Below, piece by piece: positions 27,885-60,921 of a stretch of 64,000 nucleotides of DNA (the first letter of the stretch is position 1; the number at the start of each line of letters is the position of its first letter). The translations under genes and the position numbers were made by a program. Source of the DNA: Tsukamurella asaccharolytica (lineage in GTDB: Bacteria > Actinomycetota > Actinomycetes > Mycobacteriales > Mycobacteriaceae); NCBI RefSeq assembly GCF_007858435.1, contig NZ_VIGW01000002.1:434001-498000 (forward strand), in the 5' to 3' direction. The notes beneath the pieces are model-generated. The model saw only the letters and a list, made by a program, of their open reading frames with translations, ran no database searches and had not been told where the DNA came from.

Positions 27885-28688
27885 TCAGGGCAGGCGTGCG
27901 TGGGCTCGGGTGCGGCGGCGCTGCCTCGGGAGGAAGGCGTCGAGGACGTCGCCGCAGCGGTAGAGGTGTTCGACGGTGCCGCGGGTGCGGCCGGGGACCT
28001 TGCCGCGGACCTCGAGGGGCCGGCGGCGGCGGGTCAGTTCGTGGATGGTCTTCGGGCGGACGGTGAGGCCGAGGCGGGCCTCGACGATGTCGACGAGTTC
28101 GGCGGCGGTGAACAGGCGGTCGCGGAGGGCTCGGTCGACGCGTTGGTCGTTGGTGGCGCGGTCGATAGTGGCGGAGCAGGTGCGGCAGGTGATCGGGTCG
28201 TCTTCGGGGCGGGCCCAGAGGTCGCCTGCGCAGTCGGGGCAGGATCCGACGTAGCTGGGTGTGCGGGGGCGGTCGACGACGGCGATCGCGCGGTCGATGG
28301 CGTAGAGGATCTCGTCGTAGCCCTGGGCGCCGTCGGGCATGAGGGCGAGGCCGCCGGTGTGGCGGGATTCGGCGAGCCAGGCGGCGGAGGCCTTGATCGT
28401 GAGTCGGTCGGGGAGGTCGTCGAAGGTGCGGGCGGTCGCGATGGCGCGGGCCCACGAGGCGAGGGTGTTGGCGAGGTCCCAGGCGATATCCGAGGCGGCG
28501 GGGTGGAACGGGAACGGGCGCTCTTTGGCCTTGCCGGTGGAGACGAGAGGCTCGGCGGCGTGGCTCGTCTGTCGGGTGACGGTCTCGTCGAGGGCGTCGG
28601 CGAGCCAATCGGTGACGACGGTAAGGCGCGCGGTGAGCTTGTCCTGTTCGGGATGGGTGACGTACAGGTAGTCGGTGTTCGCGCGCAT
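27885..28688 (-). CDS. Zinc-ribbon / HTH-type DNA-associated protein
   Basis: A 267-residue protein. A zinc-ribbon-like motif (C-P-D-C ... C-R-T-C, around residues 150-170) lies in the middle, followed by a region (about 190-250) with a helix-turn-helix-like pattern ('AAELVDIVEARLGLTVRPKTIHELTRR') and a basic Arg-rich C-terminus. It is the last gene of the early operon, next to RusA and the replication protein, so it may be a regulator or replication accessory. The ATG at 28688 overlaps the rusA stop by one base. Confidence 0.72.
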   Translation of the reverse strand: MRANTDYLYVTHPEQDKLTARLTVVTDWLADALDETVTRQTSHAAEPLVSTGKAKERPFPFHPAASDIAWDLANTLASWARAIATARTFDDLPDRLTIKASAAWLAESRHTGGLALMPDGAQGYDEILYAIDRAIAVVDRPRTPSYVGSCPDCAGDLWARPEDDPITCRTCSATIDRATNDQRVDRALRDRLFTAAELVDIVEARLGLTVRPKTIHELTRRRRPLEVRGKVPGRTRGTVEHLYRCGDVLDAFLPRQRRRTRAHARLP

Positions 28689-29104
28689 CAGGGCGTGGCC
28701 TCCGGGTCGGTGTGGGTGATGGTGAGCGCGACGCCGGGCTGCTCGTCGCGTTCGGCGATGCGTTTCGTGGCGTGGACGTCGACGATCTGGGAGTCGTCGA
28801 TCCAGGCGATGCTGGTGCCGGCGTCGAGGATGGCGCGGAGGAGCTTGTCGACGTCGGGCTTCTTGGTGGCCGCCGGTGTGGGCTTCGTCTTCGGGAGCGC
28901 CTTGGGGCGGGGCATGACGAACTCGGCGCGGATCGTGACGGGGCCGTCGATGGGGGCGGGGACGTTCTCGCCGAGGGTGAGCGCGACGACTGCGCGCCAG
29001 GGTCCGACGGCCTTCGAGGACTCGACCATGATGCCGCGGCCGACGTGGCGCTTGGAGCCTTGCGGGGCGGGGCGGCCGGGGACGAAAACGGTGTAGGTGG
29101 TCAT
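28688..29104 (-). CDS. RusA-like Holliday junction resolvase
   Basis: A 138-residue protein of the RusA family. The core signature P-D-V-D-K-L at about 83-88 and I-D-D-S-Q-I near 101-106 supply the catalytic aspartates, and the N-terminal 'PAPQGSKRH' is typical of the family. It resolves branched DNA before packaging. The gene lies beside an inverted-repeat region and the replication gene. No clear Shine-Dalgarno is visible before ATG 29104. Confidence 0.88.
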   Translation of the reverse strand: MTTYTVFVPGRPAPQGSKRHVGRGIMVESSKAVGPWRAVVALTLGENVPAPIDGPVTIRAEFVMPRPKALPKTKPTPAATKKPDVDKLLRAILDAGTSIAWIDDSQIVDVHATKRIAERDEQPGVALTITHTDPEATP

Positions 29105-29138
29105 GCGTGCCGCCGCTCGAGAGGAGCGACCAGCAAGG

Positions 29139-29342
29139 GAATTGCTGGCTTGCTGGTCGACCAGCGAACAGGCTGCGAATGTGCGAGTTTCTCGCGCATG
29201 TGATGAATGACATTTTTTGATAACAAATACATAACTAATACCCCTTGAGCTGCTCGTTATTGCTTCGTGATGTTCCGTTACCGTTCCGTGACAGAACGGG
29301 GCTCGATTCCTGTTCGCTGGTCGACCAGCAAGCCAGCAATTC
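29139..29342. repeat. 34-bp perfect inverted repeat around an AT-rich spacer
   Basis: Arms 29139-29172 and 29309-29342 are exact reverse complements (34 of 34). Each arm contains a 14-bp palindrome, GCTGGTCGACCAGC. The 136-bp spacer is the most AT-rich stretch of the prophage (about 29204-29242) and has smaller hairpins at 29183-29195 and 29281-29299. An extra partial copy (CGACCAGCAAG) lies just outside at 29127-29137. Candidate origin or MITE-like element. Confidence 0.85.
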
Positions 29343-29362: not shown

Positions 29363-32035
29363 TCATGCTCGGACCGCCTTGTAGAGCACGCCGGGACGCC
29401 CGCCCTTGCGGGTCGGCTCGATCTCCTCGCGCTCGAGGAGCCCGTTCTCGGTGAGGCTGTCCAGCGCGGTCTGCACGTAGGGCCGCTGCGCCTTCGAGAC
29501 ACCGGACAGGACGTCGCGCCGCGGGACCGCACCGTCGTGCTGGCCGACGATCCGCATGACCCGCTGCTCGGTCTCCGCGATCCGCGCGCCGTCGATCTCC
29601 TGCGCCGTGACCTTCGCGCCGACCTGCTCGGCACCGCGCTCCTGACCGCGCTTCTCCGCGGCCTGCAGGCGACCGATCTCCATGGCCTCGACGAGCCGGT
29701 TGCGGGTGAGGAACGACATCGCGACGACGACCCCGGCGAGGTCCCAGTCGTCGACGGTGACGTGGTCGCGGCCGTCGAGGATCCCGAGCGCCGCGGCGAC
29801 CTTCTCGCGGGCGTACATGGTGTGGCCGTCGAGCGTGTCCGGGTTGTCGGGGTCCTCGATGAAGTCGACGTTGCGGGCGCGGCGCAGTCGCTCGTTCCAG
29901 ATCTCGCGGAGCGCCTCCGGGCAGACGTCGATGGTGTGCCCGCCGTCCGGCCACCACTCGGGGCGGAACGGCTCGCCGCGTTCGTCGCGTTCTCCGATCC
30001 GGGACAGGATCCGGCCGTCGTAGCGGACGGGGTCGCCGATGCGGTGGTCCACGGACGGGGCCCAGATGAACCGCTGCGGGGTGCCTCCGTCGGCGCCGGC
30101 GAACAGTCCGGCGGCGCGCTTGGGCTGGACGCTGACGACGCCGGTGAGCCGGTAGCCGTGCGCGGTGAGCCGGAGACGCTTCTCCATCGTGGAGTAGGAG
30201 AACGCGATCGTCTCGCCGCTGAATGCCTGGCGGAGCACCGAGTCGATGGTCGACGACTGGCGGCCGCTGATGGCGGTGAGCATGTCGACCTCGGGGACGT
30301 CGAGGAGCACGGACCGGCGGGCCCACACGAACTCGGTCTGCTTGGTCTCCTTGTCGGTGACCATGCCGCCGAAGAGCTGCCCGACGCCTTCGCCCGATCC
30401 GGCGCCCGCGGTGTAAATCGAGGGGTGCTGGTAGAGGCGGGCCGCGACCCCGGCGGCGAGACCCTTCCCACCGGACGACGGTGCGACGATCCCGGCGTAC
30501 AGGTTCAGCGAGCCGGTCGGGCTGTGCGAGGGGCCGTCGGCGTCGGGGTTGTGGATCCCGGGCAGGTACACGTCGTGGGGTACGGCGGCGAGCACGCGCA
30601 TGATGACGACGGCGAGGGTGGCCCACGGGCTCGCGGTGCCGGCCAGCGCCGCGGCGTACACCGTGGCGAGGCTCGGCCGGGCCTCCCAGAAGTCGCCTTC
30701 GATCTGCGCGACGAGCGCGGCGTACTCGGGCTCTGTGGCGGTCATAAGCACCGAACCGGCGGTGTCCCCTGAATCTTCGGGTGTGACATCGGCGTGAAAC
30801 GGTCTATCACCGATGTCACACCCCTCGTCGAAAGGGGCGGTGACCTGCTGATTGTCCGGTTTCTGGCGTGCGGTTGAGGGTGCGGCGAGGGCGCGGAGCC
30901 GGTCCAGCTCGTGCGCGGACCGCTCGAGGTAGGCGTCCTCGGCCGCGTAGTCGCGGTGCTCGTGGCCGCCGAGTTCCTCGGCGACGCGGGCATCGCTCAT
31001 CGCGGCGACCTCGCTCTCGCCGTACCGGATGGCCTGCTCGACCTCGAACCGCGCGACGGGCCGGGTGTCGCCGCCGCGGGCGCACAGCGCGGCGAACCGG
31101 GCACCGAGTTCCCGCTCGGCGCCCGCTGCGTCTGCGCCGGTGAAGCATCCATGGCGGCGCGCTGCGGCGATGCGGACGGCCTGGGCGACGAGCCACGGGT
31201 GCCGGGCGTGCGGCTGGTCGCCCGCCCATCCGCGGACCATGTCGTCGGCGTACTTGCACGCCTGCTGGCCGCTCTGCCGGTACGACCACGTGGACGGCGC
31301 GGACACGACCTCGCCGGTGGTGGGGCGGTCGGAGTCCATCGGCGCGACGCCGGCGCGGGTGAGGGCGGCGTCCAGCTCGGCGACGGTGAGCGGGACACCG
31401 GTGCCGCGGATCGCGGACGTGGGTACCGGATCGGCGGGGTCCTTGTGGTTCGTCGTCCCCGGGGCGCGGAGCACGCGCGGGAGGTCGAAGACGCTGTCCG
31501 CCTTGACGCCGTGCGCCGCAGCGCTGGCCTGGACGAGACGGCCGTGCCGCTTGAGCATCGCGACCGCCGTGGCGCGCTTCTCGTCGGTGTCGAGCACGGT
31601 CGCCGGGTCCTGGTGGTCGAGGATCCACACGGGCTGCACGCCGTGCCCGGAGAGGGTCATGAACACGGGCTCGGTGCCGTAGGCGTCGGTGAGGTCGTCG
31701 ATGATCGCGTTGATGGTGTCGTTGTCGCCGGACTTGCCGTCGCCGAAGTCGAGGTCGGCCCAGACGGCGCACCAGCGGCCGACGGTCTTCTCGGTGGCGC
31801 GCCGGTTGTCGTGCGGCGGCTCGGCGATCTCGTTGACGCCGTACCAGACGTCACTGCCGACGAGCCCCGCAGCGAGGGCGGGGACGATGCCCGGGGTGAC
31901 ATGGTGGTTGATGACGCCGGGCGCGCCGACCTGCTTCTGCATGATCGAGGTCCACTGGCGGTGTCCGAGGAGCGCGACGACGTCGGCGAGGCCGAGTTCC
32001 TGCCCGGCGTGGGTGGTGCTGTCGGCGTTCGTCAC
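29363..32035 (-). CDS. Replication protein: primase-like and helicase-like domains
   Basis: An 890-residue protein. The N-terminal region resembles archaeal-eukaryotic-type (prim-pol) primases, with D94-x-D96 and a later S-G-H-G motif. The central/C-terminal part contains a P-loop (SSGGKG, lysine near 524) and downstream acidic motifs like DUF3987/D5-type helicases. It probably drives phage DNA replication. The start is GTG 32035 in a GTGA overlap with the methyltransferase stop. The C-terminal 60 residues look like a winged-helix ('GLLEREEIEPTRKGGRPG'). The candidate origin lies right behind its stop. Confidence 0.82.
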   Translation of the reverse strand: MTNADSTTHAGQELGLADVVALLGHRQWTSIMQKQVGAPGVINHHVTPGIVPALAAGLVGSDVWYGVNEIAEPPHDNRRATEKTVGRWCAVWADLDFGDGKSGDNDTINAIIDDLTDAYGTEPVFMTLSGHGVQPVWILDHQDPATVLDTDEKRATAVAMLKRHGRLVQASAAAHGVKADSVFDLPRVLRAPGTTNHKDPADPVPTSAIRGTGVPLTVAELDAALTRAGVAPMDSDRPTTGEVVSAPSTWSYRQSGQQACKYADDMVRGWAGDQPHARHPWLVAQAVRIAAARRHGCFTGADAAGAERELGARFAALCARGGDTRPVARFEVEQAIRYGESEVAAMSDARVAEELGGHEHRDYAAEDAYLERSAHELDRLRALAAPSTARQKPDNQQVTAPFDEGCDIGDRPFHADVTPEDSGDTAGSVLMTATEPEYAALVAQIEGDFWEARPSLATVYAAALAGTASPWATLAVVIMRVLAAVPHDVYLPGIHNPDADGPSHSPTGSLNLYAGIVAPSSGGKGLAAGVAARLYQHPSIYTAGAGSGEGVGQLFGGMVTDKETKQTEFVWARRSVLLDVPEVDMLTAISGRQSSTIDSVLRQAFSGETIAFSYSTMEKRLRLTAHGYRLTGVVSVQPKRAAGLFAGADGGTPQRFIWAPSVDHRIGDPVRYDGRILSRIGERDERGEPFRPEWWPDGGHTIDVCPEALREIWNERLRRARNVDFIEDPDNPDTLDGHTMYAREKVAAALGILDGRDHVTVDDWDLAGVVVAMSFLTRNRLVEAMEIGRLQAAEKRGQERGAEQVGAKVTAQEIDGARIAETEQRVMRIVGQHDGAVPRRDVLSGVSKAQRPYVQTALDSLTENGLLEREEIEPTRKGGRPGVLYKAVRA

Positions 32036-57044: not shown

Positions 57045-57067
57045 TTCAGGGGACCGCGCCTCCCCTG

Positions 57068-57112
57068 AGCTGCGCGGAAGCGGAGGGATTGAACCTCGGA
57101 TGGTTTCACCCA
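57068..57112 (-). pseudogene. Degenerate 3' half of tRNA-Ser (attachment-site remnant)
   Basis: About 45 bp match the 3' half of the tRNA-Ser(TGA) gene at 60829-60874 (same orientation) with a handful of mismatches and a one-base gap: the acceptor strand, T-arm and part of the variable arm, ending within the conserved 'GGTGAAACCA'. The 5' half is missing. This is the expected displaced core of a tRNA-integrated element. Confidence 0.72.
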
Positions 57113-60505: not shown

Positions 60506-60836
60506 GCCGCCTGTTTTGGAAGCCCGGGCGCATCTCACCCGTCGCGCGCCTGGTTCGCCGTCGCCCCAAGCTTCTCGATCAGACGACTGGAATGCACACG
60601 CCGGCCAGGGGGCCTACAGGAACAAAGAACAGCCCGTGCCTACGTGGCCGGGGCACGCCGACGGTGGGGTGCTAGCACTCCGTGTGTAGGGGCACACCGA
60701 TCCCAAGGACCTCGGGCGCGCCGCCGCAGCGCTTGCACACCCCTGACCCTCCCCAGCGGTTCTCGCGTGGGGATTTGTGGGGATCAACGCGTGAGGGAAG
60801 GTTCCTCAGCTAGCGAGAAACCTTTCCCGAGCTACG
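60506..60836. other. Non-coding spacer between the HNH gene and tRNA-Ser
   Basis: 330 bp without a convincing gene. Around 60590-60645 a roughly 45-bp segment resembles one at 59350-59395 (shared ACGCCGGCC and ACAGGAACAA cores), an imperfect direct repeat flanking the HNH gene. Confidence 0.45.
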
Positions 60837-60921
60837 CGGAAGCGGAGGGATTTGAACCCCCGGTGGTTTCACCCACGCTCGCTTTCAAGGCGAGTGCATT
60901 CGGCCGCTCTGCCACGCTTCC
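60837..60921 (-). tRNA. tRNA-Ser (anticodon TGA)
   Basis: Minus-strand class II tRNA: acceptor GGAAGCG / CGCTTCC, discriminator G, long variable arm 'CGTGGGTGAAACCACC', anticodon loop CTTGAAA with TGA. No encoded CCA. Its 3' half is duplicated at 57068. Confidence 0.95.

Follow-up and report, generated by a model that had tools for sequence, protein, structure and literature searches.

Replication origins placed directly 3' of their initiator gene have been described for the PICI/SaPI satellites, where two sets of iterons surround an AT-rich region (PMC6092414). The SaPI Rep helicase is reported to read these iterons through its C-terminal domain and appears to bind the origin as two hexamers, and at the putative origin of SCCmec Cch2 the C-terminal domain of this helicase, in isolation, binds direct repeats that follow its gene (PMC7581432). 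In pRN1, an essential stem-loop lies 3' of a gene coding for a primase-helicase-winged-helix protein; the motifs bound were left unidentified by the authors, who proposed the same origin type for the Bordetella phage BIP-1, and the alpha protein of the satellite phage P4 is described in the same study as combining primase, helicase and winged-helix origin binding (PMC4234260). An origin-reading C-terminal winged helix has likewise been suggested for PolpTN2 (PMC5862659). Prophage origins of actinobacterial phages are represented by those of extrachromosomal mycobacterial prophages (RepA and RNA-based), which maintain the prophage in plasmid form; in the region inspected in the RepA phages, no repeats were identified by the authors (PMC7157519). 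Among the open-licence papers listed as literature matches, no report of an iteron-flanked, helicase-adjacent origin in actinobacterial phages was found.

The element considered here is located in the window, that is, the whole 64-kb stretch (64,000 nucleotides) of Tsukamurella asaccharolytica DNA that was analysed. It is most probably (about 0.88) the replication origin of a prophage, recognised by the C-terminal domain of the initiator-helicase encoded beside it, a reading supported by the recurrence of its architecture 3' of the same gene in relatives and by the co-variation of the site with that domain. An initial annotation of the DNA had offered two possibilities, a phage origin and a MITE-like insertion, and these sequence comparisons favour the first. 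As in PICI/SaPI, the first arm starts shortly after the initiator stop codon and two iteron sets flank an AT-rich region; the C-terminal domain binds the iterons there, and such a binding is predicted for the family of the window from the co-variation of iterons and domain. Unlike those satellites, the window carries a prophage with terminase and capsid genes (a terminase small subunit and a stretch resembling phage portal and major capsid genes), and its helicase is DUF3987-like, unlike the DUF927 or Primase_Cterm/D5 helicases given for SaPIs (PMC7581432). As in pRN1 and BIP-1, primase-polymerase, helicase and a C-terminal winged helix (here winged-helix-like) are combined in a single protein, and an inverted repeat, the putative origin, follows 3' of the gene; pRN1 is described as having no iterons, a helicase of the SF3 family and a stem-loop with a 21-nt stem at 75 C (PMC4234260), whereas the window has iterons and no D5_N match. 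SCCmec Cch2 differs in its three 5-nt iterons, its helicase family and inverted repeats that are dispensable for binding (PMC7581432), and P4 alpha in its Toprim-type primase (PMC4234260). The features of the locus are the following (coordinates of the window; those without a strand are unstranded):

28688-29104, minus strand: gene of a rusA-like Holliday junction resolvase, the next gene past the origin (PF05866, E 7.8e-17)
29127-29137: further half-site resembling the iterons, the seventh, CGACCAGCAAG, next to the left arm towards rusA (from the listing of inverted and direct repeats)
29139-29342: candidate replication origin, two mirrored iteron arms and AT-rich spacer (from the sequence and the architecture conserved in relatives)
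29139-29172: mirror arm, 34 nt
29142-29148 and 29150-29156: iterons TTGCTGG of the mirror arm
29161-29167: inverted iteron copy CCAGCGA of the mirror arm
29173-29308: AT-rich spacer, candidate DNA unwinding element
29309-29342: arm nearest the replication gene, 34 nt
29333-29339 and 29325-29331: iterons CCAGCAA of this arm, in the same orientation
29314-29320: inverted iteron copy TCGCTGG of this arm
29363-32032, minus strand: candidate initiator gene, primase-helicase (from profile matches and alignment with relatives)
about 29366-29572, minus strand: C-terminal winged-helix-like part of the initiator, last 69 residues

The two 34-nt arms are 100% complementary and enclose 136 nt, as the initial annotation had described, and both contain the 14-nt palindrome GCTGGTCGACCAGC noticed there (29152-29165 and 29316-29329). 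Each arm is composed of three 7-nt units (TTGCTGG or TCGCTGG), two direct and one inverted, the opposite arm being the mirror image, and the palindrome of each arm is overlain by its last two iterons. No perfect inverted repeat within 1 kb in the window is longer than the one formed by the arms (the runner-up has 17 nt), and in 20 simulated first-order Markov windows the longest one had 14-19 nt, so that the annotated view of a repeat beyond chance length holds. The AT-richest 50, 60, 100 and 136 nt of the 64-kb window (72, 68, 61 and 56% AT, in DNA of 70% GC) are all in the element or overlap it, the richest 60 nt of the spacer (68% AT) being placed at about 29202-29261; the corresponding claim had been made for the prophage only and stands at the scale of the window. 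The site was also correctly placed between the primase/helicase gene (stop at 29363) and rusA (start at 29104), both on the minus strand, with 21 nt from the stop to the element and a gap of 34 nt to rusA.

Palindromes of 14 nt are typical of operators, and the element lies directly upstream of rusA, which is transcribed in the same direction. A repressor or the initiator could thus sit on the palindromes to control rusA and the genes downstream, but the element is linked to the helicase gene upstream, the next gene varies in relatives (annotated as endonuclease VII or hypothetical), and the AT core and the mirrored arrays over about 140 nt are left unexplained. An operator is therefore a very unlikely explanation of the element as a whole, although this function may be an added role.

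The initiator consists of an N-terminal primase/polymerase part, a DUF3987-like helicase part and a C-terminal winged-helix-like part. Its open frame of 1012 codons extends to 32401, into the methyltransferase gene upstream; the part with homology starts near 32032, giving 889 residues, and the frame beyond this position is probably not translated. The protein matched PHROG family 28894 (DNA polymerase/primase) with 1138 bits, and the only domain found in a Pfam scan was DUF3987, with a score below the gathering cut-off. At E 0.01, DUF3987 was matched by 44 of 56 aligned relatives, and D5_N and DUF927 by none of the 56. For the final 70 or so residues, a winged-helix-like fold is suggested by weak profile matches to the MCM4 C-terminus (E 0.0021) and RPA32 (E 0.0068).

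The gene has a mosaic structure. In the N-terminal primase part it is 76-77% identical to Tsukamurella phages (76% to TPA4, whose arms are unrelated, and 64% to Francois), while its helicase and C-terminal parts come nearest to the Gordonia Betterkatz phages (59% and 51%), with identities to TPA4 of 37% and 31%. The arms of the Betterkatz phages have the unit TTGCTGG in common with the window. An IMG/VR prophage (L004), perhaps of the same strain, is identical to the window over the initiator gene and the origin.

The same plan was found in named relatives with other letters. After the same gene, the Gordonia phage Francois has 31-nt arms at 90% with a 133-nt spacer, and the Tsukamurella phage TPA4 has 45-nt arms at 80% with a 145-nt spacer, in a sequence unrelated to that of the window except for a piece of spacer present in both, TAGTTAT..GTTATCAAAAA.TGTC in minus-strand reading. 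The arms are perfect over 25 nt in phiGD17-1 (GGTGTCAG units), 24 nt in prophiGD05-1 (GGTGGAGG units) and 30 nt in Dulem virus 32 (CGTGGCCA units); the units are CCTGGAAA in Reyja and Santhid, and CGTGGACA in Tarzan and Hibiscus. In 12 of 13 loci of 5-9 kb, the strongest inverted repeat (spacer 60-230) begins after the helicase gene, the mycobacteriophage NiebruSaylor being the sole exception. In CL31 the array is located 217 nt past the stop, with direct pairing better than inverted near the stop, and in TinyDot the AT core is not enclosed by the best inverted pair. Apart from Dulem virus 32, the named phages belong to Gordonia, Tsukamurella, Mycobacterium and Corynebacterium. The conservation in relatives that the initial annotation had looked to as a sign of an origin was thus found for the architecture beside the same gene, but not for the sequence of the repeat.

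These relatives also bear on the insertion proposed in the initial annotation. Long perfect terminal inverted repeats and a small size are features of a MITE or another insertion with 34-bp terminal repeats, but the element has a single copy in its own genome and none in 300 additional genomes of the family, its flanks show no target-site duplication, and in relatives the corresponding position holds elements built alike but with unrelated termini. When 241 nt with the element were compared with phage and plasmid DNA collections, the matches were short and had E values of at least 0.2. An insertion is therefore extremely improbable. Two matches of 26-27 nt to an arm in other genomes were rejected as origins or copies, since they are within a large reading frame. 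In the genus, the DNA of the replication gene has only matches below 100 nt outside its own genome; one such genome (G003, locus L063) codes for a distant protein homologue (35%) without the origin pattern.

A wider survey was carried out with loci of three sources. The phage records included 292 with any protein match and 65 with a match to the C-terminal half (60 of them listed), 16 of which were taken; 28 of 397 sampled genomes of the order of the window had a match, its own genome included; and the best 80 of 85 IMG/VR matches corresponded to 78 loci. Copies of the window, BetterKatz, TPA4 or Tsukamurella 1534, chance DNA matches and a 37-residue match were excluded beforehand (L001-L003, L006-L009, L012-L014, L029-L049, L119, L122, L135 and L139). 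Of 121 loci entered, 114 were judged, and seven without a stop or with less than 300 nt downstream were dropped (L005, L061, L104, L117, L132, L140 and L146). Removal of relatives at least 80% identical left a non-redundant set of 88 loci, in which the window is represented by L004, counted within the nine 'phage' loci. A locus was scored as a match when its strongest inverted repeat (spacer 60-230) started between -60 and +300 from the helicase stop; L069, with a stop set differently in two steps, was scored as a miss.

Matches were obtained in 77 of the 114 loci (7.4 expected from uniform placement) and in 53 of the 88 non-redundant ones (6.0 expected), with a median arm start 19 nt past the stop. 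By source, the latter comprised 33 of 51 IMG/VR, 12 of 28 genome and eight of nine phage loci. An 8-mer was present at least four times in the 320 nt past the stop in 53/88 loci, against 26/2214 control windows, and the AT maximum past the stop exceeded every control window of the same locus in 51/88. The inverted pair and the 8-mer repeats occurred together in 47 of the 88 loci, that is, in 47 of the 53 matches; the other six matches have fewer than four 8-mer copies, and four of these six have weak pairs (scores 10-12), about the number that chance would produce. The 35 misses (18/51 IMG/VR, 16/28 genome and 1/9 phage loci, NiebruSaylor included) comprise 29 loci with neither sign and six that have repeats without a long pair (L055, L056, L075, L076, L111 and L112). 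Some motifs recurred in 60 AT cores chosen without sequence overlap: TATATA in 16/60 (1.87 expected) and CTAACTA in 9/60 (0.46 expected from shuffles).

The mycobacteriophage-like loci of NiebruSaylor (L023) and L100 encode the same helicase family, but the 320-460 nt following the gene lack an iteron array; the origin may be elsewhere in these two. In five Gordonia phage records, a gene for a hypothetical protein is annotated across the iteron array (L015 and L016, 4715-4987; L017, 4727-5077; L018 and L019, 4712-4942), and these may be spurious gene calls.

The order of the repeats is mostly mirrored: among the 53 loci with at least four repeats, inverted pairing was better than direct pairing in 41, with four ties and eight loci with the opposite result. 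Two further explanations of the inverted repeat can be weighed here. According to the first, the strand would fold into a cruciform or hairpin whose shape is read by the initiator, in the style of pRN1 and BIP-1; the similar protein, the same place 3' of the replication gene, the stem-loop of about 100 bp required in pRN1 (PMC4234260) and the perfect complementarity of the arms in the window agree with this. The arms of relatives can be imperfect, however, as in Francois and TPA4, direct pairing is better in the eight loci just mentioned, a short 8-mer is found at least four times in 53/88 loci, and the iterons change along with the C-terminal domain. In addition, the control phage BPP-1, near-identical to BIP-1, has no 8-mer present three times and an inverted repeat score of just 10.5, with no iteron array after the gene; its protein contains D5_N, PriCT_2 and Prim-Pol domains, and the profile of the window family gives no match to it. 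Recognition of a sequence in duplex DNA fits the imperfect or direct arms, the repeated 8-mers and the iterons that change with the C-terminal domain, and a folded stem-loop origin is considered improbable. According to the second, a recombinase acting on the 34-bp repeats would flip the spacer. Inverted sites of this length round a short segment do resemble recombinase sites, but all 91 alignable spacer pairs from 24 related loci have one orientation, the neighbours are rusA and the primase-helicase gene with no invertase, and the arms of relatives can be imperfect, which makes an invertible segment highly implausible. The long perfect inverted repeat is better understood as a by-product of mirrored protein-binding sites than as a cruciform, the end of a transposon or a site of recombination.

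The dependence of the iterons on the parts of the adjacent protein was analysed in pairs of loci, 76 of 77 loci having usable repeats (2850 pairs). Iteron sharing was correlated with the identity of the C-terminus when that of the helicase was given (partial correlation 0.46, p 0.001), and not with the identity of the helicase when that of the C-terminus was given (-0.02, p 0.76); in a deduplicated set of 62 loci the values were 0.20 (p 0.001) and 0.06 (p 0.09), respectively. With helicases of 85% identity or above, 50/51 pairs with similar C-termini had no less than half of their repeated 7-mers in common, against 0/72 pairs with different C-termini (3/4 and 0/14 after deduplication, the 14 pairs coming from three lineages). 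With any shared 7-mer counted, the figures were 50/51 and 9/72. The exception is the pair L091/L093, with iterons GGTGGAC and GGTGGCC, respectively, and a few residue differences in the C-terminal domain. These comparisons of sequences indicate that the iterons track the C-terminal domain rather than the helicase of the adjacent protein.

Several natural swaps illustrate this relation. The helicases of phiGD17-1 and prophiGD05-1 are 98% identical and their C-termini 68%, and the iterons change from the GGTGTCAG to the GGTGGAGG type, while the AT core can still be aligned (72-74% per 50 nt) and the next gene is kept (mostly >90%). The same was seen between Reyja/Santhid and Tarzan/Hibiscus, three pairs of which have helicases 95-98% and C-termini 65-67% identical, and between L109 and L118, with values of 90% and 54%. 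The code between iteron and C-terminus is not one-to-one, because many pairs of distant loci have GGTGGACA-type iterons in common with C-termini only about 25-40% identical; these units may reflect common ancestry of the site or convergence.

The DNA next to the origin was compared in 15 loci that are related to M. abscessus phages, namely 13 IMG/VR contigs and two named records; their origins are of type A (5), B (8) and C (2). The types are scattered on the helicase tree, with seven changes (minimum 2, shuffled mean 6.1), the branch support of this tree being low and no branch starred. Among pairs of different type, at least 90% DNA identity was found for the helicase in 47/66, for the downstream 600 nt in 40/66, and for the C-terminal stretch and the origin in 0/66 each; among pairs of the same type, it was found for the helicase in 31/39 and for the C-terminal stretch, the origin and the downstream 600 nt in 38/39 each. 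All A versus B pairs kept the downstream DNA at this level (40/40; helicase 35/40, C-terminal stretch and origin 0/40), and none of the 26 pairs involving type C did so. The swap between A and B is thus limited to the C-terminal domain and the origin, and that of type C comprised a larger block. Since the C-terminal domain adjoins the origin and the downstream DNA changes with type C, inheritance of adjacent DNA can contribute to the coupling; the downstream DNA partly follows the origin type.

On the model of established initiators, the origin would be used on induction of the prophage as follows. The C-terminal winged-helix-like domain would bind the iterons, three sites per arm, and this binding would collect one helicase ring per arm. 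The two oppositely facing rings would then melt the AT-rich core, and the helicases, with the primase part of the same protein, would start two forks, the mirror order of the iterons leading to a bidirectional start.

The swaps raise the more general idea, for which the odds are judged to be even, of an exchangeable origin-specificity cassette in tailed phages, chiefly actinobacterial among those with known hosts, in which some 65 codons at the end of the initiator gene, for the winged-helix-like part, and the mirrored iterons 3' of them are replaced jointly, with the helicase and often the downstream genes staying. If so, phages with near-identical replication proteins would belong to separate replication-compatibility groups, and the exchange would perhaps be selected as a way round origin competition or hijacking from prophages and satellites in the same cell. 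The natural swap pairs, with helicases up to 98% identical and differing C-terminal domains and iterons, would make the recognition code directly readable. If the element is an origin, a sequence rule would become available for locating origins across a large phage and prophage group with many actinobacterial members, and the iteron-flanked, helicase-adjacent origin, described in a 2018 report for satellites only (PMC6092414), would extend to full phages with another helicase family.

Other properties of the element were also considered. An Rfam search gave no RNA match up to E 1. Of the small hairpins described in the initial annotation, one adjoins the AT core (5-bp stem, GCGAG-AAA-CTCGC). 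Hairpins beside the AT core of 50 related origins had a mean stem of 3.92, against 3.63 in shuffles, and 23 of the 50 loci were above their own shuffle mean; being hardly above shuffles, the hairpin is not a conserved part of the origin. With the actinobacterial DnaA box taken to be TTGTCCACA, no box with up to two mismatches was found in the origin of the window. Under this assumed box, at least two DnaA-box-like sites were present in 10 of the 53 related origins, and L096 (after 3793) has three exact copies; such DnaA-like iterons could represent mimicry of, or cooperation with, the host DnaA. Elsewhere in the window, a 32-nt direct repeat (88%) is located at 57059-57090 and 60821-60852, the 3' end of tRNA-Ser(TGA) (60836-60921) being overlapped by one of the two copies; the pair may represent the attachment sites of a further small element integrated there.
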